Positions 53,439 to 63,143 of a stretch of DNA of 64,000 nucleotides are shown here, in pieces. This DNA is from Planctomycetota bacterium (lineage in GTDB: Bacteria > Planctomycetota > Phycisphaerae > UBA1845 > UTPLA1): positions 1-64,000 of the forward strand of contig JAATGM010000021.1 of the NCBI GenBank assembly GCA_015654675.1. Direction: 5' to 3'. The position numbers were made by a program, and so were the translations under genes. The notes below the pieces were generated by a model, which saw nothing but the letters and a program-made list of their open reading frames with translations, was not told where the DNA came from and did not search any database. Numbering within the stretch: position 1 is the stretch's first letter; the number at the start of each line of letters is the position of its first letter.

Positions 53439-53460
53439 GAGAGTCGCGGGAAGCTTGCCC

Positions 53461-53919
53461 ATGCCATCCAAGGTGCAACGACAGGAAACGCTTCTGCGGC
53501 TCGTGCGGCAGCATCGCCTCGGGAGGCAGGAGGAAATCGTCCGCTGCATGGCCAAAGCCGGCTTCCCCGTCACCCAGGCCAGCGTCAGCCGCGACATTCG
53601 CGAGCTCGGGCTCGTCAAGCTCGATGGGCGTTATGTCCCGCTCGAGAATCTCGCCGCCGACGCACCGCCGGATGTACCGGCGGGCGCCGCCGGACTCGTG
53701 ACCGCCGTCGATGCGGCCGGCCCCAATCTGCTGGTCATTCGGACCACGCCCGGGGCCGCCAGCACCGTCGCCATCGCGGTCGACAATCAACGCCTTGCCG
53801 GAGTGGCTGGAACCATCGCCGGTGACGACACGGTGTTCGTCGCGGTACGCGGGCGAGCGGCCGTCGAAAAGGCCAGCCGCATCCTTCGCGGCTGGGTGCG
53901 CACGGCCAAGGCGGGCTGA
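53461..53919 (+). CDS. argR: Arginine repressor
   Basis: The 152-aa protein starts at the ATG at 53461. The N-terminal winged helix is ETLLRLVRQHRLGRQEEIVRCMAKAG...VTQASVSRDIRELGLVKLDGRYV. The C-terminal hexamerisation/arginine-binding domain has NLLVIRTTPGAASTVAIAVD and GTIAGDDTVFVAVR with the paired Asp that bind L-arginine. It should repress the adjacent arginine biosynthesis genes when arginine is abundant. It is the first gene of the cluster, 30 bp before argG. Confidence 0.96.
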   Translation: MPSKVQRQETLLRLVRQHRLGRQEEIVRCMAKAGFPVTQASVSRDIRELGLVKLDGRYVPLENLAADAPPDVPAGAAGLVTAVDAAGPNLLVIRTTPGAASTVAIAVDNQRLAGVAGTIAGDDTVFVAVRGRAAVEKASRILRGWVRTAKAG

Positions 53920-53949
53920 GGCCGGCCGAACGTGCGACAGGAGAGAGAC

Positions 53950-55152
53950 GTGAAACCCAAGGTTGTACTGGCATTCTCAGGCGGGCTCGATACGACGTAT
54001 TGCGCCGTCTGGCTTCGCGAGCAGGGCTACGACGTTCACGCCGTCACCGTGCAGACAGGCGGCTTCAATTCGGACGAACTGGCGCTCATCGAACAGCGTG
54101 CCAAGCAGGCCGGCGTGGCCGAGTATCGGCTCTTTGAGGGCCGCCCCGAGCTTTTTGCCGACATGCTGCGGCCGCTCATTTTCGCGAACGCGCTTCGCGG
54201 CGGCGTCTATCCGCTATGTGTTTCCGCTGAACGCATCGTTCAGGCCCGCAAGTGCGCTCAGTACGCCACTGAAATCAAGGCAGCCGCGATTGCTCATGGT
54301 TCGACCGGTGCGGGCAACGACCAGATTCGCTTCGATACGGCCTTCCGCGTGTTTGCCCCCGGCGTGAAGATCCTCACGCCGATCCGCGACCAGGCCCTGA
54401 CACGCGCCGCCGAGACGGCCTGGCTTGCAGATCGCTCCATTCAGATTCCGCCGAAGACGACCAAGTACTCGATCAATCGCGGGCTGTGGGGCACGACAGT
54501 CGGCGGAGCCGAGACGCACAAGAGCGACGGCGTGCTCCCCGAAGACGCCTACGTCCTGACTGCGTCGCCCGACAAGCGCCCAACCAAAGCCGAGCAGATC
54601 ACAATCGACTTCACTCGCGGCGTGCCGACCGCCATCGATGGCAAACCGCTCGACCCGGTTGCATTGATCGAGCAGCTAAACGATCGCGGCGGCGCACATG
54701 GCGTCGGCCGCGGCATGCACGTCGGAGACACTATTCTTGGTATCAAGGGCCGCGTGGCGTTCGAGGCGCCCGCCGCCGTGACGCTCATCGCGGCCCACAG
54801 GGATCTCGAAAAGCTCGTCCTCTCGCGCCAGCAATTGTTCTGGAAGCAGACGCTCGGCGAGCTCTACGGCTCATTCGTTCACGAGGGCCGCTTTTTCGAC
54901 CCGCTGATGCGCGATATCGAGGCCTTCCTCGAGTCTTCGCAACGCCGCGTCACCGGCCGCGCCACCATTCAGTGGCTGGCCGGGCAGGCGATCGTGCTGG
55001 GGGCGACCAGTCCGTATTCGCTGATGAATCCGGCGGTCGCGCTTTATGGCGAAGAGTCATCGCTGTGGACCGGTGCGGAGGCAGGCGCCTTCGCGAAAAT
55101 CTACGGCCTGCAGGACTGGCTCCTCTCGCGCGTGAGCGAGAAAGGTCAATAA
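53950..55152 (+). CDS. argG: Argininosuccinate synthase
   Basis: The 400-aa enzyme condenses citrulline with aspartate using ATP. Start GTG 53950 has AGGAG seven bases upstream; an earlier in-frame GTG at 53932 precedes that site. Motifs are AFSGGLDTTYCAVWL (ATP PP-motif), IAHGSTGAGNDQIRFD, YSINRGLWGTTVGGAE and GIKGRVAFEAPAAVTLI. It is the penultimate step before ArgH. In this cluster it lies early, before X and argC. Confidence 0.97.
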   Translation: MKPKVVLAFSGGLDTTYCAVWLREQGYDVHAVTVQTGGFNSDELALIEQRAKQAGVAEYRLFEGRPELFADMLRPLIFANALRGGVYPLCVSAERIVQARKCAQYATEIKAAAIAHGSTGAGNDQIRFDTAFRVFAPGVKILTPIRDQALTRAAETAWLADRSIQIPPKTTKYSINRGLWGTTVGGAETHKSDGVLPEDAYVLTASPDKRPTKAEQITIDFTRGVPTAIDGKPLDPVALIEQLNDRGGAHGVGRGMHVGDTILGIKGRVAFEAPAAVTLIAAHRDLEKLVLSRQQLFWKQTLGELYGSFVHEGRFFDPLMRDIEAFLESSQRRVTGRATIQWLAGQAIVLGATSPYSLMNPAVALYGEESSLWTGAEAGAFAKIYGLQDWLLSRVSEKGQ

Positions 55153-55154
55153 CC

Positions 55155-56225
55155 ATGCGTCTATCCGTTGACAAGATCGCGTCTGCGACGCGAAACGTTT
55201 CGCTTCGACGCGACACGCGCGTCAGCGATTCAATCGTCGCCGCGCCGGGCTATGTCATGGCCGGGAGAATCCGCGGTCAGAAGAACACCTACAACCAGTT
55301 GGAAGACCTGCACGGCCGAATGGTCACGCTGCACGATGGCGACGTGATTGCCGGTGTGCTGGGCCACCGCAACGCGCTGCACGGCTATTCGGGCGTTGTG
55401 CCCGAGTCCATCGCCGTCGGCGATACGCTCCAACTGTTGAACCTTGGCGGTGTCATTGGTCGCTGCACATCGGAGAATCCCGATCTCGGCCGACCGTTTG
55501 ACGTCGAGATCCTGGGCGCGGTCCTGGTGTTCCCTGAGTTCGAGAGTCGCCAGGGCACGCCGGCCCACATCGGCATGAACGCGATCGAGTATGACGGCAA
55601 CGGCGTTCCGGATGTTCCGGTGATCTATGTCGCCGGCACCTGCATGAGCAGCGGCAAGACCGGTGCGGCGTGTCAGCTCGTGCGGCAACTCGCCACGCGC
55701 GGCGCGGCCGTCGGGGCCTGCAAGCTGACCGGGGTGTCGCTCCGCCGCGATACGCTCGCCATGATGGACTACGGTGCGCGTTGGGCGGTAACGTTCACAG
55801 ACGCGGGCGTGGTCACCAGCAGCCCCGCAACGGCGGTGCCCGTTGCGCGTGGATTGGTGGCATACCTGGCTCGCGAGGGCGCCGATGTGATCGTCGCGGA
55901 ACTGGGCGACGGCATCCTCGGAGAGTATGGCGTGCAGCAAATTCTCGCCGACGAAGTGCTGATGGCCCGCTCGGCCGCGATCGTTCTCTGCGCCAATGAC
56001 CCGGTGGGGGCGTGGGGCGCGAAGGAGTTGCTGACCGATGAGTATGGTCTCGCGATCGATGTCGTCAGTGGCCCGACCACCGACAACGCCGTCGGCACGC
56101 GATTTATTCGCGAGCAACTCGGCCTCGAGGCCATCAATGCCCGCACGCATGGCCGCGACCTGGGCGGGTTTGTGGCCGGCAAGTTGAATGGCCGTCTCAA
56201 GAAAGCCGTGGAGCACGTAGGCTAA
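55155..56225 (+). CDS. Unrecognised P-loop protein X in the arginine cluster, possibly DUF1611/DgcN-like
   Basis: The 356-aa product lies 2 bp after argG and directly before argC. Residues about 20-145 are beta-rich (DGDVIAGVLGHRNALHGYSGVVPESIAVGD). A C-terminal P-loop domain has Walker A-like GTCMSSGKT (Lys168), ACKLTGVSLRRDTLAMMDYGARWAVTFTDAGVVTSS and VIVAELGDGILGEYG. The order of P-loop, TG-containing strand, DF/TD segment and late acidic strand recalls DUF1611, whose characterised member DgcN N-acetylates D-glutamate; the similarity is by eye and weak. No ArgA or ArgJ occurs here, so X could supply the missing N-acyltransferase, or act as a kinase or regulator. Confidence 0.55.
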   Translation: MRLSVDKIASATRNVSLRRDTRVSDSIVAAPGYVMAGRIRGQKNTYNQLEDLHGRMVTLHDGDVIAGVLGHRNALHGYSGVVPESIAVGDTLQLLNLGGVIGRCTSENPDLGRPFDVEILGAVLVFPEFESRQGTPAHIGMNAIEYDGNGVPDVPVIYVAGTCMSSGKTGAACQLVRQLATRGAAVGACKLTGVSLRRDTLAMMDYGARWAVTFTDAGVVTSSPATAVPVARGLVAYLAREGADVIVAELGDGILGEYGVQQILADEVLMARSAAIVLCANDPVGAWGAKELLTDEYGLAIDVVSGPTTDNAVGTRFIREQLGLEAINARTHGRDLGGFVAGKLNGRLKKAVEHVG

Positions 56226-57293
56226 GTGGCGAAGCAACCAATCCATGTCGGCATCCTGGGCGGGAGCGGCTACGGCGCGGGCGAGTTGCTGCGCCTGTTC
56301 ACGCAGCATCCCTCGGCCGAGGTTGTTTCGGTCACGTCGGCCTCATCGGCGGGCGAGTCGATAACCGCGCTTCATCCGCATCTGCGCGGCTTCTACGATT
56401 TCCGCACGACGGAATCGCTCGATCTTCACAAGTTGCTTTCAGCCGAGCACGCCGTAATCTTTTCGGCGCTGCCGCATGCCACCAGCGGCGCGATGATCGA
56501 TCGCCTGCTGCAGGCCGTCGAAAAGCTCTCGGCCCTCGAAAAAGTCAAAATCGTCGATCTCTCGGGCGACCTTCGCCTTCGCGATCCGGCCAATCACGTC
56601 CGGCTATACCCCGAATCACCGCTCATTCCCGAACGGCGGCGAGCGTTCGTCTACGGCATGCCCGAGCTCTTTCGCGAACAGATTCAAACAGCCCGCTGGG
56701 TGGCGAATCCCGGCTGTCTCGCGACGGCGTCAATTCTCGCGGCGGCCCCTCTCGTCGAGCCTCCTTTTGCTGGAACCGTGGCCATCGACGCCAAGACCGG
56801 GTCGTCGGGATCGGGTAGGGCTCTCAAGGACACGACGCACCATCCGACGCGGCATGCCGACTTTCGGGCGTACAAGCCGCTCAATCATCCGCATGAAGCG
56901 GAGATCCTTCAGGCGTGGGGCGATCCGCGCTCGATGCGAATCAAAGTCAGCTTTGTTCCGCAGAGTATGGACGTGTCTCGCGGAATCTTCACCACGGTGC
57001 ATCTCAAGTTGGCCGAGTCCACCACCACGGAAGACCTGCACGACAAGTACGCTGCATTCTACGAGACCTGCCCGTTCGTTCGCGTCGTTCACGACTCGCC
57101 CACTTTGCAGGACGTGGTCGGATCCAATTTCTGCGATGTGTCGGTGGTGTGCCGTGGCCGGCAGGTGATTGCCATGGCGGCCATCGACAATCTCATCAAG
57201 GGCATGGCCGGTACGGCCATTCAGAATATGAACCTGATGTGCGGCCTGCCTGAGACGACCGGGCTGTGGGCCCCCGCGCTCCGACCCGTCTGA
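56226..57293 (+). CDS. argC: N-acetyl-gamma-glutamyl-phosphate reductase
   Basis: The 355-aa NADPH-dependent enzyme reduces N-acylglutamyl phosphate to its semialdehyde, third step. A GTG start immediately follows the X stop. The Rossmann start is GILGGSGYGAGELLRLF and the active-site Cys lies in VANPGCLATASILAAAPL. TGSSGSGRALKDTTHHPTRHADFRAYKPLNHPHEAEI is the substrate-binding block with catalytic His. Length is typical of type 1 ArgC. Acyl group identity (acetyl or succinyl) cannot be told. Confidence 0.96.
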   Translation: MAKQPIHVGILGGSGYGAGELLRLFTQHPSAEVVSVTSASSAGESITALHPHLRGFYDFRTTESLDLHKLLSAEHAVIFSALPHATSGAMIDRLLQAVEKLSALEKVKIVDLSGDLRLRDPANHVRLYPESPLIPERRRAFVYGMPELFREQIQTARWVANPGCLATASILAAAPLVEPPFAGTVAIDAKTGSSGSGRALKDTTHHPTRHADFRAYKPLNHPHEAEILQAWGDPRSMRIKVSFVPQSMDVSRGIFTTVHLKLAESTTTEDLHDKYAAFYETCPFVRVVHDSPTLQDVVGSNFCDVSVVCRGRQVIAMAAIDNLIKGMAGTAIQNMNLMCGLPETTGLWAPALRPV

Positions 57294-57320
57294 CCAACCG
57301 TTGATTTGCAAGGAGAGGAA

Positions 57321-58454
57321 TTGAAATCGAACGCCCTCATTGAGACTTACGCGCAGTTCCCCATCGAAGTGGAGGATGGACACGGCACGCGCGTTCGCGA
57401 CCGCGCGGGTCGCGAATATTGGGACTTCTACGGTGGCCACGCCGTCGCGATCATTGGCCACTCGCATCCCGCAATTACGCGCGCCATCGCCGAACAGGCC
57501 GCGAAGCTCACTTTCTATTCGAACATCGTCCCGATCGAGATCCGCCGCCTCGCCGCCGAACGGCTGTGCGACTTCGCGGGCGAAGGCCTCAACAAAGTCT
57601 GGTTCTGCAACAGCGGCGCCGAGGCCAATGAAAACGCTTTCAAGGTAGCAGTCCAGCAGACCGGGCGGGACCGCATCGCGGGTGTCATTGGCGGCTGGCA
57701 TGGCCGCAGTCTGCTGCCGATGGCCGCCACGACCGACGACAAGATTCGCGCCCCCTTCGAACGCATCTTCTGCGACGCCGTCCGTCTTCGCCCCAACACA
57801 AACGACGATCTCGACCTGATTGACGAGCGCGTCGCGGCCATCATCGTCGAGCCGATCTTCAGCATCGGCGGCATCTATGAATTGAATGCCGAATTCCTTC
57901 GCGCCGTCCGCAAACGCTGCGACGAAGTCGGCGCCCTGCTCATCTACGACGAGGTCCAGACCGGCATCGGCCGGCTGGGCCGCCCTTACGTCGCCGGCGA
58001 CTTTGGCGTTCGGCCCGACATGGTCACCAGCGCCAAGGGTCTGGCCAACGGAATCCCGATGGGTGCGGTCCTCTTTACGGACAACATCGCATCAAAGATC
58101 AAGCTCGGTGACCTCGGCGCGACCTTTGGCGGCGGCCCGGTGCCCTGCGCCGCCCTGATCGCGGTCATCGATGTCATCCAGCGCGAAGGCCTGCTCGAAA
58201 ACGCCCGCAAACTCGGCGAGGCCATGAAAAAGAAACTTCTCGCCGGGCCGGTGCGCGAGGTCCTCGGCCGCGGCTGCCTCATCGGTCTGCGCGTCGAGGG
58301 CCCCTCCAAGCCCGTTCAGGAAAAGCTGATGTCGCTCGGCTTTCTCACCGGCACCAGTGCAAACCCAAGCGTGTTGCGACTGATGCCGCCGATCAACACC
58401 CCCATGCATGCCGTGGACGAACTCGCCGCCGCCCTCGCGCAGGTGGCAAGCTGA
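57321..58454 (+). CDS. argD: Acetylornithine aminotransferase (N-acylornithine aminotransferase)
   Basis: The 377-aa class III PLP enzyme makes N-acylornithine from the semialdehyde and glutamate. The TTG at 57321 follows AAGGAGAGG by two bases more than usual spacing and is preferred to a TTG at 57306, which precedes that site. Motifs are DFYGGHAVAIIGHSHP, FCNSGAEANENAFKVA, IYDEVQTGIGRLG and the PLP Lys in TSAKGLANGIPMGAVL. The family cannot be split by sequence into acetyl- and succinyl-ornithine forms. Confidence 0.93.
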   Translation: MKSNALIETYAQFPIEVEDGHGTRVRDRAGREYWDFYGGHAVAIIGHSHPAITRAIAEQAAKLTFYSNIVPIEIRRLAAERLCDFAGEGLNKVWFCNSGAEANENAFKVAVQQTGRDRIAGVIGGWHGRSLLPMAATTDDKIRAPFERIFCDAVRLRPNTNDDLDLIDERVAAIIVEPIFSIGGIYELNAEFLRAVRKRCDEVGALLIYDEVQTGIGRLGRPYVAGDFGVRPDMVTSAKGLANGIPMGAVLFTDNIASKIKLGDLGATFGGGPVPCAALIAVIDVIQREGLLENARKLGEAMKKKLLAGPVREVLGRGCLIGLRVEGPSKPVQEKLMSLGFLTGTSANPSVLRLMPPINTPMHAVDELAAALAQVAS

Positions 58455-58456
58455 CC

Positions 58457-59452
58457 ATGAAACACTGGCTGAGCATGCTGGATCACGCCCCCGCTGAACT
58501 CGCGGAGCTGATTGCCGACGCCCGCCGCATGAAGGCCGGCGATAGCGCCGACGCCTTGCGCGGAAAAATCCTCGGCATGGTCTTCTTCAACCCATCGCTG
58601 CGCACTCGAACATCGTTCGAAGCCGCCATGCTCCGCTTCGGCGGACACGCGATTTCCCTCGACGTCGGCGGGGACACCTGGAACCTCGAACATCGCGATG
58701 GCGTCGTCATGGACGCCGACCGCGCCGAGCACGTCAAGGAAGCTGCCCCCGTCCTCAGCCGGTACTGCGACGCCCTCGCCGTGCGAACCTTCGCCGGCCT
58801 GAAAAACGCGAACGAAGACGCCGCCGACTCCCTGATCCGCGCCTTCGCCCGTTACTCCACGGTTCCGCTGATCAACATGGAATCTGCCATGGAACACCCC
58901 TGCCAGGGCATGGCGGACTGGATGACCGTCGAGGAAAAACTCGGTCCGACACGTGGCCGAAACTTCGTGCTGACCTGGGCCCCGCAGGCCAAGGCCGTCC
59001 CGATGGCCGTTCCGCACTCGGCCGCACTCTCGGCCGCCGCCGCCGGCATGAACCTGACCATCGCCCATCCGAAGGGCTACGAACTCAATGCGGGCATCCT
59101 CGATCGCGCTCAAAGTTGGTGCGAATCGGCGGGCGGCAAATTCCAAATCACGCACGATCAATCGGCCGCGTGCGAAATAGCCGACGTCGTTTACGTCAAA
59201 AGCTGGGGCAGCACCGCGTTCTACGGCAACGCTGACGCCCAGAAAGAAGACTTCCGCCGCTACGCAAGCTGGATGGTCGACCCTCGCCATCTTGTCGGTC
59301 AGAAAACCATCCTCATGCACTGTCTGCCCGTCCGGCGAAACGTGGTTATCTCCGACGCCGCGCTCGACGATCCGCGCTGTGTCGTTGTCGATCAGGCCGA
59401 AAACCGGCTATGGACTCAGGCGGCCATCCTCAATCGCCTGCTCCGGAGGTAA
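58457..59452 (+). CDS. argF': N-acylornithine carbamoyltransferase (AOTCase/SOTCase-type)
   Basis: The 331-aa enzyme carries FFNPSLRTRTSFE (carbamoyl-phosphate loop) where ordinary ArgF has STRT, and HCLPVRRNVVISDAAL where ordinary ArgF has HCLPAHRGEEV. It lacks the ornithine-binding SMG loop, and has YVKSWGSTAFYG instead. These are marks of N-acetyl- or N-succinyl-ornithine carbamoyltransferases of Xanthomonas and Bacteroides. Thus carbamoylation probably precedes removal of the acyl group. At the position reported to set specificity (Glu92 in Xanthomonas AOTCase, Pro90 in Bacteroides SOTCase), the segment MDADRAEHVKE seems to have Ala; the alignment is by eye. Confidence 0.87.
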   Translation: MKHWLSMLDHAPAELAELIADARRMKAGDSADALRGKILGMVFFNPSLRTRTSFEAAMLRFGGHAISLDVGGDTWNLEHRDGVVMDADRAEHVKEAAPVLSRYCDALAVRTFAGLKNANEDAADSLIRAFARYSTVPLINMESAMEHPCQGMADWMTVEEKLGPTRGRNFVLTWAPQAKAVPMAVPHSAALSAAAAGMNLTIAHPKGYELNAGILDRAQSWCESAGGKFQITHDQSAACEIADVVYVKSWGSTAFYGNADAQKEDFRRYASWMVDPRHLVGQKTILMHCLPVRRNVVISDAALDDPRCVVVDQAENRLWTQAAILNRLLRR

Positions 59453-59459
59453 TGAAGCA

Positions 59460-60401
59460 ATGGCAACCCGCGATCCGCACACCAATCCCAGCATGAAGGC
59501 CCTGCGAACGGCCATCCCCTACATCCGCGCCTACGAAGGCCGTGTGTTTGTCGTGAAGCTTGGCGGCCGCCTCTGCAACCCTGGCCCCGAGCTTGAAAAC
59601 GTCGTCGAACAGTTGGCCCTGCTCGCCACGCTCGGCATCAAGCTGGTCGTCGTCCACGGCGGCGGCGACCAGGTAAGCGACCTTGCGCGCCGCTTCGGCC
59701 ACGAGCCGCAGTTTGTCGCCGGCCGCCGCGTAACCGACGAACACACGCTTGAACTCGCCAAGATGGCCCTGGCTGGAACCATCAACATCAACCTCGTCGC
59801 CGCCTTTCGGCTACATGATGTCCCCGCCGCCGGTCTCACGGGCGTCGACGGCAAGATGATCACGGTCGTGAAGCGGCCGGTTCGCGCAGTCAGCGACCCC
59901 GCGACGGGCGAGACGCGCGACGTCGACTACGGATTCGTGGGCGACATCGTTTCGGCCCGCACGGAACTCATCGAGCATCTGCTCGACAAGCGCTATGTGC
60001 CGGTCATCGGCACGCTCGCATCGGATGCGCAGGGCCGCATCTATAACGTCAACGCCGACACCGTCGCGGCTCGTATCGCAGTTGAGCTCCGCGCCGTGAA
60101 GTACATTCTCCTTACCACCGTCGACGGAGTCCTGCTCAACGTGAACGATGCCGAGACGCTCCAACCCTATCTCGACGTCGCCGATATCGACGAACTGGCC
60201 GGCCGCGGTGTGGTGGCTGGTGGAATGCTGCCCAAAGTGGCCGCCTGTGCCGACGCGGTCCGCGGCGGCGTGCCGCGCGTGCACATCATCAACGGCGCAA
60301 CGCCGGATGCGGTTCTCGCCGAAATCTTCACCAACGAAGGCAGCGGCACCCTCATCGTCGCCGAGCGCGAGCAAAAGCCCGAAGTGAAATCAGATCGATG
60401 A
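59460..60401 (+). CDS. argB: Acetylglutamate kinase
   Basis: The 313-aa kinase phosphorylates N-acylglutamate, second step. GGAGG precedes the ATG at 59460. It has FVVKLGGRL (catalytic Lys), LVVVHGGGDQVSDLARRFG, FVAGRRVTDEHTLE, VNADTVAARIAVELRA and TTVDGVLLN. The segment MKALRTAIPYIRAYEGRV before the first strand is the N-terminal helix seen in hexameric, arginine-inhibited ArgB. Feedback inhibition by arginine is therefore likely, a second control besides ArgR. It overlaps argE by 4 bp (ATGA). Confidence 0.95.
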   Translation: MATRDPHTNPSMKALRTAIPYIRAYEGRVFVVKLGGRLCNPGPELENVVEQLALLATLGIKLVVVHGGGDQVSDLARRFGHEPQFVAGRRVTDEHTLELAKMALAGTININLVAAFRLHDVPAAGLTGVDGKMITVVKRPVRAVSDPATGETRDVDYGFVGDIVSARTELIEHLLDKRYVPVIGTLASDAQGRIYNVNADTVAARIAVELRAVKYILLTTVDGVLLNVNDAETLQPYLDVADIDELAGRGVVAGGMLPKVAACADAVRGGVPRVHIINGATPDAVLAEIFTNEGSGTLIVAEREQKPEVKSDR

Positions 60402-61510
60402 CCACGAGCGCACCGGCCGTGAATGCAGAATCTGTCATCGAACGGCTCACCCGTCTCGTCGCGATCCGCAGCGTCTCGCGCGAAGAAGATGCCATCGCCG
60501 CCGACGTCTTCGCCGAACTCCAATCGGCCGGCCTCAAGCCGCAACGACTCGGCTGCAACGTCTGGTGCGAACTCGGCGACGCCCCGCGCCCGCGCCTGCT
60601 CTTTAACTCGCATCTCGATACCGTCCCGCCCGCCGCCGGCTGGACCGCCGACCCCTGGTCGCCGACGCGACTCGCCGATCGCATCGAAGGCCTCGGTGCA
60701 AATGACGCAAAAGCCAGTGTCTCCGCCATGATCGAAGCCGCCATCGCGCTGCGTAACCAACTGGGGGCTGGCGCAAAACTGGGTGGAACGCTCGTGCTCG
60801 CACTGACCGCCGAAGAGGAAATCAGCGGCAAAGGCCTCTCCGAACTGATCCCGGCACTGCGCCCCATCGATGCCGCCATCGTCGGCGAACCGACCGCACT
60901 TGTTCCCATGATTGCCCAGCGCGGCTTGCTCATCCTCCGTTGCGTCGCCCACGGTCGGACCGGCCACCCCGCCAACACCCCCGGCGACACCAAAGACAAC
61001 GCCATTGCGAACGCCGCCGCCGAAATCCTTCGCTTGCGAGAATTCGACTTCGGCCCGGCTCACCCGCTTCTCGGCCGCTGCCACGCCCACGTCACGAAAA
61101 TCGAAGGCGGCGTCGCCCTCAACGTCATCCCGGACTCGTGCGAGTTTCACGTAGACATCCGCACCACCCCGCTCCAACCCCACGACGAGCTAGTCGCCAA
61201 GCTCAAGGAATACCTGCATTGCGAAGTAAACGTCCGCAGCCAGCGCCTCATCCCTGTTCAAACCAATCCTGATGAGCGAATCGTTCAGGCCGTCGCGCGG
61301 GCCCTCCCCGGCGCCGCCCCCGCCGGAAGCCCGGCCATGAGCGACATGGTCTTCCTCGCGGGAATTCCCAGCGTGAAAATCGGCCCCGGCGACACCCATC
61401 GCTCCCACACCCCCGACGAATTTATCACGCCTGACGAGCTCGCCGCCGGCGCAGCCGCCTACGAACGCATCGCCCGCGAATACTTCGCCGCCGGAGCCAA
61501 CCATGGCTGA
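60398..61510 (+). CDS. argE: M20-family N-acylcitrulline/ornithine deacylase
   Basis: The 370-aa zinc metallohydrolase has NSHLDTVP (metal His and Asp), GANDAKASV, TAEEEISG (catalytic Glu and metal Glu), EPTALVP and GRTGHPA as in the ArgE/DapE-like M20 group. With an acylornithine carbamoyltransferase in the operon, its likely substrate is N-acetyl- or N-succinyl-citrulline, releasing citrulline for ArgG. A role on acylornithine cannot be excluded. It overlaps argB by 4 bp and argH by 8 bp. Confidence 0.88.
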   Translation: MTTSAPAVNAESVIERLTRLVAIRSVSREEDAIAADVFAELQSAGLKPQRLGCNVWCELGDAPRPRLLFNSHLDTVPPAAGWTADPWSPTRLADRIEGLGANDAKASVSAMIEAAIALRNQLGAGAKLGGTLVLALTAEEEISGKGLSELIPALRPIDAAIVGEPTALVPMIAQRGLLILRCVAHGRTGHPANTPGDTKDNAIANAAAEILRLREFDFGPAHPLLGRCHAHVTKIEGGVALNVIPDSCEFHVDIRTTPLQPHDELVAKLKEYLHCEVNVRSQRLIPVQTNPDERIVQAVARALPGAAPAGSPAMSDMVFLAGIPSVKIGPGDTHRSHTPDEFITPDELAAGAAAYERIAREYFAAGANHG

Positions 61511-62855
61511 CCAACCAACCCGCCTCTGGCACAAAGGTCAGCCGCTTGATGAATTGATCCACAGTTTCACCGTCGGTGACGACCCAATCTGGGATCTCAA
61601 GCTCGTGCACGCCGACCTGCTCGGCTCAGCCGCCCACGCCCACACGCTGCACCGGGCCGGGTTGCTTTCCGAAGCGGAGCTCAAAAGTCTCATTTCGGGC
61701 CTGCGCGCGATTGCCACCGCGCACCGCGAAGGCCGCTTCACCATTCCGCGCGAGCTCGAAGACTGTCACACCGCCATCGAAGCCGAGCTCACCCGCGCAT
61801 GCGGCGATACGGGCAAGAAAATCCACACCGGCCGATCCCGAAACGATCAGGTCGCCACCGCCATGCGTCTCTACTTGCGCGCCCAGGTGGTGCGAGCCGT
61901 GGAGCTCCTCGCGGCGTTCGTCAGCACAACGCTCGACCGCATCGAGCGCGACGGCCGAATCGACATGCCCGGCTACACGCACATGCAGCCCGCCATGCCG
62001 TCGAGCGTCGGTCAATGGCTTCAAGCCCACGTCGAAGCCGCGCTCGACCAGATGCGCGCCGCCCTCGCCCTGTTCGATCGCCTCGATAGCTGTCCGCTGG
62101 GCACCGGCGCCGGCTTTGGCGTTCCCTTGGACCTCGACCGCCCCTTTACCGCCCAGCTGCTCGGGTTCGCCCGCGTGCAACGAAATCCGATCGACGTGCA
62201 AAATTCCCGTGGCCGGATGGAGCTCTATTTCGCGCGGCTCGCCGCCGATGTCGGCGCCTTCCTCGAAAAACTCGCCAGCGACTTGCTGCTCTTCTCAACC
62301 GCCGAGTTCGGCTTCTTCTCGCTGCCCGCCGCACTGACGACCGGCTCATCCATCATGCCGCAAAAGCGCAATCCGGATGTGCTCGAACTGATGCGCGGCA
62401 GGTCAGCCCGCCTCCGCGCCCGCGCCATCGAGCTGGAATTGATCATCGCCAAGCTGCCCTCCAGCTATCACCGCGACCTCCAACTCACCAAGGAACCCGC
62501 CTTCCGCGCCGCCGATGAACTCGACGAGCTGCTTCGTGTAGCCGAGCGCGTGGTCGCAACGTTTGAAATCCACCCGGACCGGCTCGCCGCCGCGATGCGG
62601 CCCGAGCTGTTCGCAACCGAGGCCGCCCTCCAGATGTCCAAGTCCGGCACTCCCTTCCGCGAGGCCTATCGCCGCATTGCCGACGACCTGGCCGCCGGTC
62701 GATTCAAACGCCCGTCCACCACAGCCGGCGCTTCTCAGCCGCAGTTGCTCTTTCCCGCCGCCTGCGACGAGATTCGTGCAGAACTGGAAACCCTGACCAA
62801 TCGGTGCCGTCAGCTCTCATCCAAACAGGATCACGCCGAAAAACTGCTTCGTTGA
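61503..62855 (+). CDS. argH: Argininosuccinate lyase
   Basis: The 450-aa enzyme cleaves argininosuccinate to arginine and fumarate, the last step. It has DCHTAIEAELTRACGDTGKKIHTGRSRNDQVAT, the fumarase/aspartase-superfamily signature GSSIMPQKRNPDVLELMRG, and PGYTHMQPAMPSSVGQW (catalytic His). Length is typical. It is the last gene; the operon ends at a hairpin terminator about 150 bp on. Confidence 0.97.
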   Translation: MADQPTRLWHKGQPLDELIHSFTVGDDPIWDLKLVHADLLGSAAHAHTLHRAGLLSEAELKSLISGLRAIATAHREGRFTIPRELEDCHTAIEAELTRACGDTGKKIHTGRSRNDQVATAMRLYLRAQVVRAVELLAAFVSTTLDRIERDGRIDMPGYTHMQPAMPSSVGQWLQAHVEAALDQMRAALALFDRLDSCPLGTGAGFGVPLDLDRPFTAQLLGFARVQRNPIDVQNSRGRMELYFARLAADVGAFLEKLASDLLLFSTAEFGFFSLPAALTTGSSIMPQKRNPDVLELMRGRSARLRARAIELELIIAKLPSSYHRDLQLTKEPAFRAADELDELLRVAERVVATFEIHPDRLAAAMRPELFATEAALQMSKSGTPFREAYRRIADDLAAGRFKRPSTTAGASQPQLLFPAACDEIRAELETLTNRCRQLSSKQDHAEKLLR

Positions 62856-63143
62856 CCATTCGCAACACATTGCCATGAAGCAACTTAAAGAAAATCCCGG
62901 CCCGTTGTAAGGTTTGCCCGGCGATTGGGTCTATAGGGGTGGTGGATGAGGCCGCAATGCGGGAGACGGGCCGAATCCACTCGGGAGCAAATAACGGAAC
63001 GGGCGCGGATGACCAAGAGGCGGGTCATCCGCGTCTTACCGTTTTTACGCACCAACACGTTCCATCGCCAGGTTGCATTCACTCACCAATTCCGCGAAAA
63101 CCCTTCACTTCAATCCTCGCAATAGGTTTTGGAAGGATCTCGC
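62856..63143. other. Intergenic region after the arginine operon
   Basis: Of these 288 bp, 63004-63046 is the operon terminator and the last 20 bp hold the ribosome-binding site (GGAAGGA) of the TPR gene. The rest shows no convincing gene or RNA. Confidence 0.5.
63004..63046 (+). terminator. Rho-independent terminator of the arginine operon
   Basis: An 11-bp perfect stem (CGCGGATGACC at 63004-63014, GGTCATCCGCG at 63023-63033) with an 8-base loop is followed by TCTTACCGTTTTT. Confidence 0.9.

Follow-up and report, generated by a model that had tools for sequence, protein, structure and literature searches.

The arginine operon and its first step

The window, i.e., the whole 64,000-nucleotide stretch of planctomycete DNA analyzed here, harbors a cluster of nine genes on the + strand, ordered argR-argG-X-argC-argD-argF'-argB-argE-argH according to family models. 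The cluster begins with the gene of the arginine repressor, argR (53455..53919; PF01316 and PF02863 above cut-off, TIGR01529 104 bits), followed by argG (53932..55152), which encodes argininosuccinate synthase (TIGR00032 324 bits, cut-off 268). The open reading frame referred to here as X (55155..56225) has an ATG start, encodes 356 amino acids plus a stop, and is separated by a gap of 2 bp from the argG stop at 55152. It is abutted by argC (56226..57293, GTG start), which encodes N-acyl-gamma-glutamyl-phosphate reductase (TIGR01850 340 bits, cut-off 234). Downstream are found argD (57306..58454, acylornithine aminotransferase; PF00202 284 bits, TIGR00707 322 bits), argF' (58457..59452, acylornithine carbamoyltransferase; NF003384 410 bits, cut-off 288), argB (59454..60401, a stand-alone acylglutamate kinase of 315 residues without a NAT domain; TIGR00761 219 bits, cut-off 151), the gene of an argE-type M20 deacylase (60398..61510; PF01546) and argH (61503..62855, argininosuccinate lyase; TIGR00838 312 bits, cut-off 280). 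The NCBIfam matches of argR, argD and argE are below their cut-offs. A terminator-like stem-loop 3' of argH (63001..63036, + strand), composed of a 14-pair stem and a T-rich tail, is consistent with a single operon; such sites are weak evidence on their own, as five are found where 9.2 are expected in shuffled sequences.

The location and neighbors of X are those given in the initial annotation, which also pointed out that the cluster lacks an ArgA, ArgJ or GNAT enzyme. This view agrees with the Pfam and NCBIfam family matches, which identify no GNAT or ArgJ among the nine operon proteins; ArgB scores below cut-off with two ArgA models because the kinase domain is common to both. All later steps of the arginine pathway are encoded within the operon according to the same models, and the small subunit of carbamoyl phosphate synthetase (carA) is found over cut-off in 20 of 22 genomes with X, the source genome included. 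Hence, it is the first step that constitutes the gap. X could also be pictured as a producer of carbamoyl phosphate, or as serving another step of the pathway, by BioD-like phosphorylation of a carbamate, which is the reaction of BioD; BioD is among the best fold matches of X (see below). However, the other steps have assigned genes, and the carA counts led us to reject carbamoyl phosphate supply as the role of X, such that we regard this explanation as highly improbable.

The source genome, which is 96 percent complete, contains neither a match to ArgJ (PF01960) nor a NAT domain of the type found in the bifunctional enzyme NAGS/K (PF04768), and these two enzymes were rejected as occupants of the first step elsewhere in the genome. 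The genome does contain 16 GNAT (PF00583) matches, 15 of which are over cut-off. Fourteen of the 16 (all but L100 and L105) were scanned against NCBIfam, and none of these 14 reaches the cut-off of an ArgA-type model, the best score being 26 bits against a cut-off of 180. The genome-wide search thus supports the initial annotation and shows no other clear candidate for the first step. The 16 GNATs nevertheless form the starting point of an alternative explanation, in which acylglutamate is made by one of them, and the P-loop protein X has an accessory or regulatory function in the operon or serves at another point of it. The low ArgA-type scores and the absence of a GNAT among the operon proteins argue against this explanation, which we consider unlikely also after weighing the genomic distribution of X discussed below.

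X itself has no match over cut-off in Pfam or NCBIfam. The known N-acetylglutamate synthases include ArgA, ArgJ, ArgO, S-NAGS and the C. glutamicum type (listed in an excerpt of PMC3827942). The step proposed for X is the same as that catalyzed by these enzymes, but none of them is recovered when X is compared with the family models at E values up to 1; GNAT families and PF01960 are likewise absent from the matches.

Distribution of X and of known first-step enzymes

Among 61 genomes, i.e., the source genome and 60 relatives, an X ortholog was found at E < 1e-140 in 15, while four others displayed a distant match only. The argF' model NF003384 is over cut-off in exactly the same 15 genomes. 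In all 14 orthologs outside the window X is located between argG and argC (15 of 15 with the window), and their identity to the window X, 63 to 82 percent, spans a range similar to that of the neighboring enzymes; the possibility that X is a chance open reading frame was rejected on the basis of this identity. A second scan with one genome per species yielded 32 X loci, of which 12 repeat genomes of the first set. The bins are labeled Planctomycetota/Phycisphaerae, Armatimonadetes/Fimbriimonas, Bdellovibrionales, Deltaproteobacteria, Proteobacteria, Myxococcales or just bacterium, and X is found beside at least one arg gene at each of the 32 loci.

In a larger sample of 392 genomes of the phylum, X orthologs (at least 271 bits) are found in 101 genomes, clearly apart from the next score tier of ten loci at 99 to 156 bits. 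No arg genes were found near the four loci of this second tier that were fetched. In contrast, arg genes are located near X in 97 of the 101 genomes. The argF' gene is found within 15 kb of X in 45 of them, and of the remaining 56 loci, all fetched, 52 hold another arg gene in the stretch, most often argG; no arg gene was found in the fetched stretch at the other four (L153, L163, L174 and L191). At 12 of these 56 loci argG is the sole arg gene found near X, which would suit an accessory protein, because a first-step enzyme does not need such a neighborhood, but operon decay can explain this arrangement.

X also has a paralog family, with 28 to 33 percent identity, which is found outside arg clusters in all seven loci read (L034:9401-10510, L035:6532-7638 and L036:5778-6908; also L207-L210). 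All seven members keep K168, K190, D199, E249 and D282, and those in L034-L036 adjoin an open reading frame of about 590 amino acids that, as judged by eye, resembles an ABC exporter. The existence of these paralogs implies that the fold of X is not tied to the proposed first-step reaction, which is a further point in favor of an accessory function.

The relation of X to ArgJ is one of near-exclusion. ArgJ is found in 180 of the 392 phylum genomes, i.e., in one of the 101 with X and in 179 of the 291 without, counts that ignore kinship, which inflates such numbers. In the set of relatives, ArgJ is present in none of the 15 genomes with X and in 16 of the 46 others. The same separation is seen within families: f45 comprises six genomes with X and seven with ArgJ, and f33 four and three, respectively, with no genome harboring both. 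The only phylum genome with both genes, G136, is a 12.3-Mb bin. In the scan with one genome per species both were found in one of 32 bins, L080 (Myxococcales B7T1B8). Here, X and the arg cluster are very close to those of Phycisphaerae bins, and because this X is 72 percent identical to the window X, the contig may derive from a planctomycete and have been mis-binned. Neither X nor ArgJ is found in 112 of the 392 genomes. The pairing of X with argF' in the same 15 relatives and the near-absence of ArgJ from genomes with X correspond to checks named in the initial annotation.

In the Xanthomonas type of the pathway a bifunctional NAGS/K is combined with an N-acetylornithine transcarbamylase (as outlined in part of PMC4490483). 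This system resembles that of the window in that the pathway proceeds via acylcitrulline, with a carbamoyltransferase of the same family. It differs in that the NAT domain is fused to the kinase and in that argF' carries Glu-Asn-Lys at the specificity positions (see below). The NAT domain (PF04768) was sought in 80 genomes, composed of 48 of about 134 known X genomes (15 from the set of relatives, 100 more from the phylum set and 20 more from the species scan, with at least one overlap, L087/G438) and 32 genomes that possess argF' while lacking both X and ArgJ. It was found in none of the 48 and in ten of the 32, i.e., among the 80 genomes the NAGS/K occurs only where X is absent. One NAGS/K that was read (L109:4480-5799) is an ArgB of 439 amino acids, with a score of 427.1 bits that lies just above the PRK04531 cut-off of 426. 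Sets of the Xanthomonas type, i.e., a bifunctional NAGS/K together with an acetyl-type argF', thus occur in some members of the phylum (L106-L113, L273 and L274).

The near-exclusion of ArgJ could partly be accounted for by acylcitrulline pathways that have no use for ArgJ. Two X clusters are informative in this respect because they contain an ordinary ornithine carbamoyltransferase (L077:5137-6099, in a Bdellovibrionales bin, and L078:11305-12165). In these clusters deacylation should precede carbamoylation, and their existence indicates that X goes with acylglutamate rather than with acylcitrulline. Together with the exclusion of NAGS/K, they argue that X represents the first step itself; mutual exclusion with ArgJ and NAGS/K is not what one would expect of an accessory protein.

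The acyl group of the pathway

Acetyl- and succinyl-ornithine transcarbamylases are distinguished by residues at three positions, numbered 92, 185 and 302 as in the Xanthomonas enzyme: Glu92, Asn185 and Lys302 in the former and A/S/P/V/Q, P and V/I/E, respectively, in the latter (according to an excerpt of PMC4581275). The ArgF' of the window displays Ala90, Pro182 and Val297 at these positions, i.e., the succinyl set. A first set of sequences, from the relatives and the species scan, comprised 32 distinct carbamoyltransferases, of which 30 are of the acyl type and two are ordinary ornithine carbamoyltransferases; the fetched stretches of L070, L076 and L081 contained no carbamoyltransferase gene. 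Of these 30, 26 display the full succinyl set, and the acetyl set is absent. Another 64 distinct argF' were taken from phylum genomes with X (48 near X and 16 elsewhere in the genome): 42 have the full succinyl set, 22 do not, and the acetyl set is again absent. When both sets are combined, X genomes account for 94 distinct acyl-type argF'; 68 of these carry all three succinyl-type residues, 26 are mixed and none is of the acetyl type, and Glu is not found at the first specificity position in any of the 94. Among the mixed sequences (that of L199 is cut by the contig end) the first position is most often occupied by Thr, Ile or Asp, or the third by Lys, and the acyl group may in these cases differ from succinyl.

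Two observations concern variation within the family. The argF' of L267, L268 and L269 (family f71) and of L251-L254 (f87) carry Asp-Pro-Glu or Thr-Pro-Glu, which is outside both published sets and perhaps reflects yet another acyl group. Furthermore, several genomes of f71, f45 and f95 (e.g., G174, G122 and G382) harbor two acylornithine-type carbamoyltransferases at separate places.

Outside the X genomes the picture is divided. All ten argF' of genomes with NAGS/K have the acetyl set Glu-Asn-Lys. The other 30 of the 40 argF' from genomes without X divide into 12 with the full succinyl set and 18 mixed ones. Because 12 of these 40 are of the full succinyl type, a succinyl route can run without X, via another enzyme. 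Genomes without X in which the full succinyl argF' is found, with no ArgJ or NAGS/K detected, include L115, L116, L118, L119, L120 and L125; either these use another first-step enzyme or X was lost in assembly. No GNAT was seen between the arg genes when the clusters of L115, L116 and L118 were read by eye. In that of L115 the gap between argC and argD is filled by an unmatched open reading frame (L115:7041-8291), the C-terminal part of which may be a small membrane protein.

The deacylase of the window is closest to the solved structure 3ct9 (229 bits), compared with 77 bits for the acetylcitrulline deacetylase 2f7v. We take 3ct9 to be a Bacteroides thetaiotaomicron protein, which may be the desuccinylase candidate of the pathway in Bacteroidetes. 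Such a candidate is named for that pathway in an excerpt of PMC7311316. Given the ArgF' residues and a deacylase nearest to 3ct9, the pathway in the window is predicted to operate with succinyl groups, with N-succinylglutamate as the product of X.

A succinylated pathway has been described for Bacteroidetes, in which the carbamoyltransferase is SOTCase and a GNAT, ArgA2/BT3761, was proposed as the N-succinylglutamate synthase (passages of PMC7311316 and PMC9026213). The window shares with this system the succinyl-type carbamoyltransferase residues, an M20 deacylase nearest to 3ct9 and a single operon in which the arg genes are joined by an additional first-step gene. In contrast, the additional gene is here X, which encodes a P-loop protein without a match to any GNAT model. 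The glutamate-succinylating gene is still listed as unidentified in a 2015 review (PMC4490483), which predates the GNAT proposal for Bacteroidetes, and among open-licence PMC papers none was found on X or on a P-loop protein for glutamate acylation.

The fold of X and its possible chemistry

The predicted structure of X (mean pLDDT 93, from a 27-row alignment) is composed of a beta-rich domain (residues 1-147) and a P-loop domain (about 150-346). The GTCMSSGKT loop that the initial annotation noted in the C-terminal half is the Walker A loop, residues 161-169 (55635..55661, + strand). Five of its positions (G161, M164, G167, K168 and T169) are the same in all 90 distinct X sequences compared, the window included, and so are K190, D199, E249, D252 and D282. 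The N-terminal domain modeled alone (pLDDT 91.5) yielded no Foldseek match at E < 1 and no Z value above 3.7, a result that does not show a new fold. A search of solved structures by sequence yielded a best E of 0.16 with X and 0.32 with a 15-row alignment.

The best match of the P-loop domain among solved structures is the DUF1611 protein 2g0t (Z 17.6, 3.0 A over 181 residues), followed by CTP synthase 7rkh (16.8), the DUF1611 protein 2obn (16.5), BioD 3of5 (16.0) and DgcN 7xrj (15.4, 3.2 A over 183 residues). Because Z values within 1 of each other are ties, the P-loop fold does not single out DgcN. The likeness to DUF1611 and DgcN proposed in the initial annotation holds for the fold of this domain, such that the outcome it named as a refutation, a lack of structural similarity to DgcN, did not arise, but it does not extend to family membership. 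The closest hint at the family level is PF07755 (DUF1611) with 12.6 bits, below the cut-off of 25 and confined to residues 153-188, and PF07755 has no hit in the source genome. When 27 orthologs were scanned singly with matches considered up to E 1, MobB was found in 21 (best E 2.8e-5) and DUF1611 in 18 (best E 2.4e-4), and both matches of the window X are located at the P-loop. The hhalign alignment between the X profile and 16 DUF1611 proteins of the phylum covers no more than 36 columns around the P-loop (probability 8.4, E 0.004), with no similarity beyond it, the N-terminal domain included; the DUF1611 profile is a fair probe because it finds 7xrj, 2obn and 2g0t at once. In addition, the residue after the Walker A Lys is M in 12, R in two and K in two of the 16 DUF1611 proteins, a lack of Ser/Thr that is a trait of these 16 rather than a published rule, whereas it is Thr in all 90 X sequences. 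Membership of X in DUF1611 was rejected on these grounds.

These comparisons bear on how X might handle the acyl group. By analogy with DgcN, X could be an acyl-CoA-dependent N-acyltransferase in which the P-loop holds CoA, i.e., a variant of the same first-step role. The top rank of 2g0t, the recovery of 7xrj and the word "N-acetyltransferase" in the title of the latter structure speak for this mechanism, and dgcN is described as the key gene of a D-Glu racemization pathway (excerpt of PMC12363236). However, CTP synthase and BioD are as close in fold, the profile similarity is limited to the 36 columns, and the Walker A loops differ as described above. On balance, we consider a CoA-dependent transfer somewhat unlikely.

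X resembles BioD and the synthetase domain of CTP synthase in the P-loop fold (Z about 15 to 17) and in the GTxxxxGKT loop, and differs from them in its added N-terminal beta-rich domain and the lack of a sequence match above cut-off. Enzymes with a P-loop domain of this class include ones that activate carboxylates or carbamates, and in BioD and CTP synthase a Lys and an acidic pair of this kind work with Mg-ATP. The invariant Lys168-Thr169, Lys190, Asp199 and Glu249 suggest that X may activate succinate with Mg-ATP, as in a ligase of the succinyl-phosphate type. Because the invariant residues resemble those of BioD and CTP synthase, an ATP-dependent ligase is favored, with the CoA transferase as the main alternative.

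From the near-exclusion of ArgJ and NAGS/K and the succinyl-leaning ArgF' residues, X is most likely a non-GNAT N-acylglutamate synthase. We consider it probable, judging from genomic context, that X is the first enzyme of arginine synthesis and acylates L-glutamate, most likely with a succinyl group, by means of its P-loop domain; what X catalyzes, which acyl group it attaches and by which mechanism are all inferred. X would acylate the alpha-amino group of L-glutamate to yield N-succinylglutamate for ArgB, working through a P-loop domain of the BioD/CTP synthase/DUF1611 class rather than a GNAT fold. ArgC, ArgD and ArgF' would then take the succinylated intermediates to N-succinylcitrulline, the ArgE-type deacylase would strip the succinyl group, and ArgG and ArgH would complete arginine. 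Of the new non-GNAT glutamate N-acyltransferase proposed in the initial annotation, the first-step role is thus supported by the arg linkage in 97 of 101 genomes and by the near-exclusion of the known enzymes, while the placement in DUF1611 is not; the acylated pathway it would feed is also supported by context. A more far-reaching proposal is that X founds a new family of ATP-dependent, possibly CoA-independent, glutamate N-succinyl ligases on a P-loop scaffold, which would replace ArgA, ArgJ and NAGS/K in numerous planctomycetes as well as in some lineages of Armatimonadetes and Proteobacteria. This is possible, and we offer it tentatively.

If the proposed role is correct, X would, to our knowledge, be the first P-loop N-acyl-L-glutamate synthase, and the step that protects glutamate would have been invented once more on an unrelated fold. 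It would also follow that the succinylated pathway known from Bacteroidetes occurs in further phyla. A genome without a recognised first gene of arginine synthesis may wrongly be called an auxotroph, and for about one in four of the phylum genomes sampled here (101 of 392) X offers a candidate to fill this gap.
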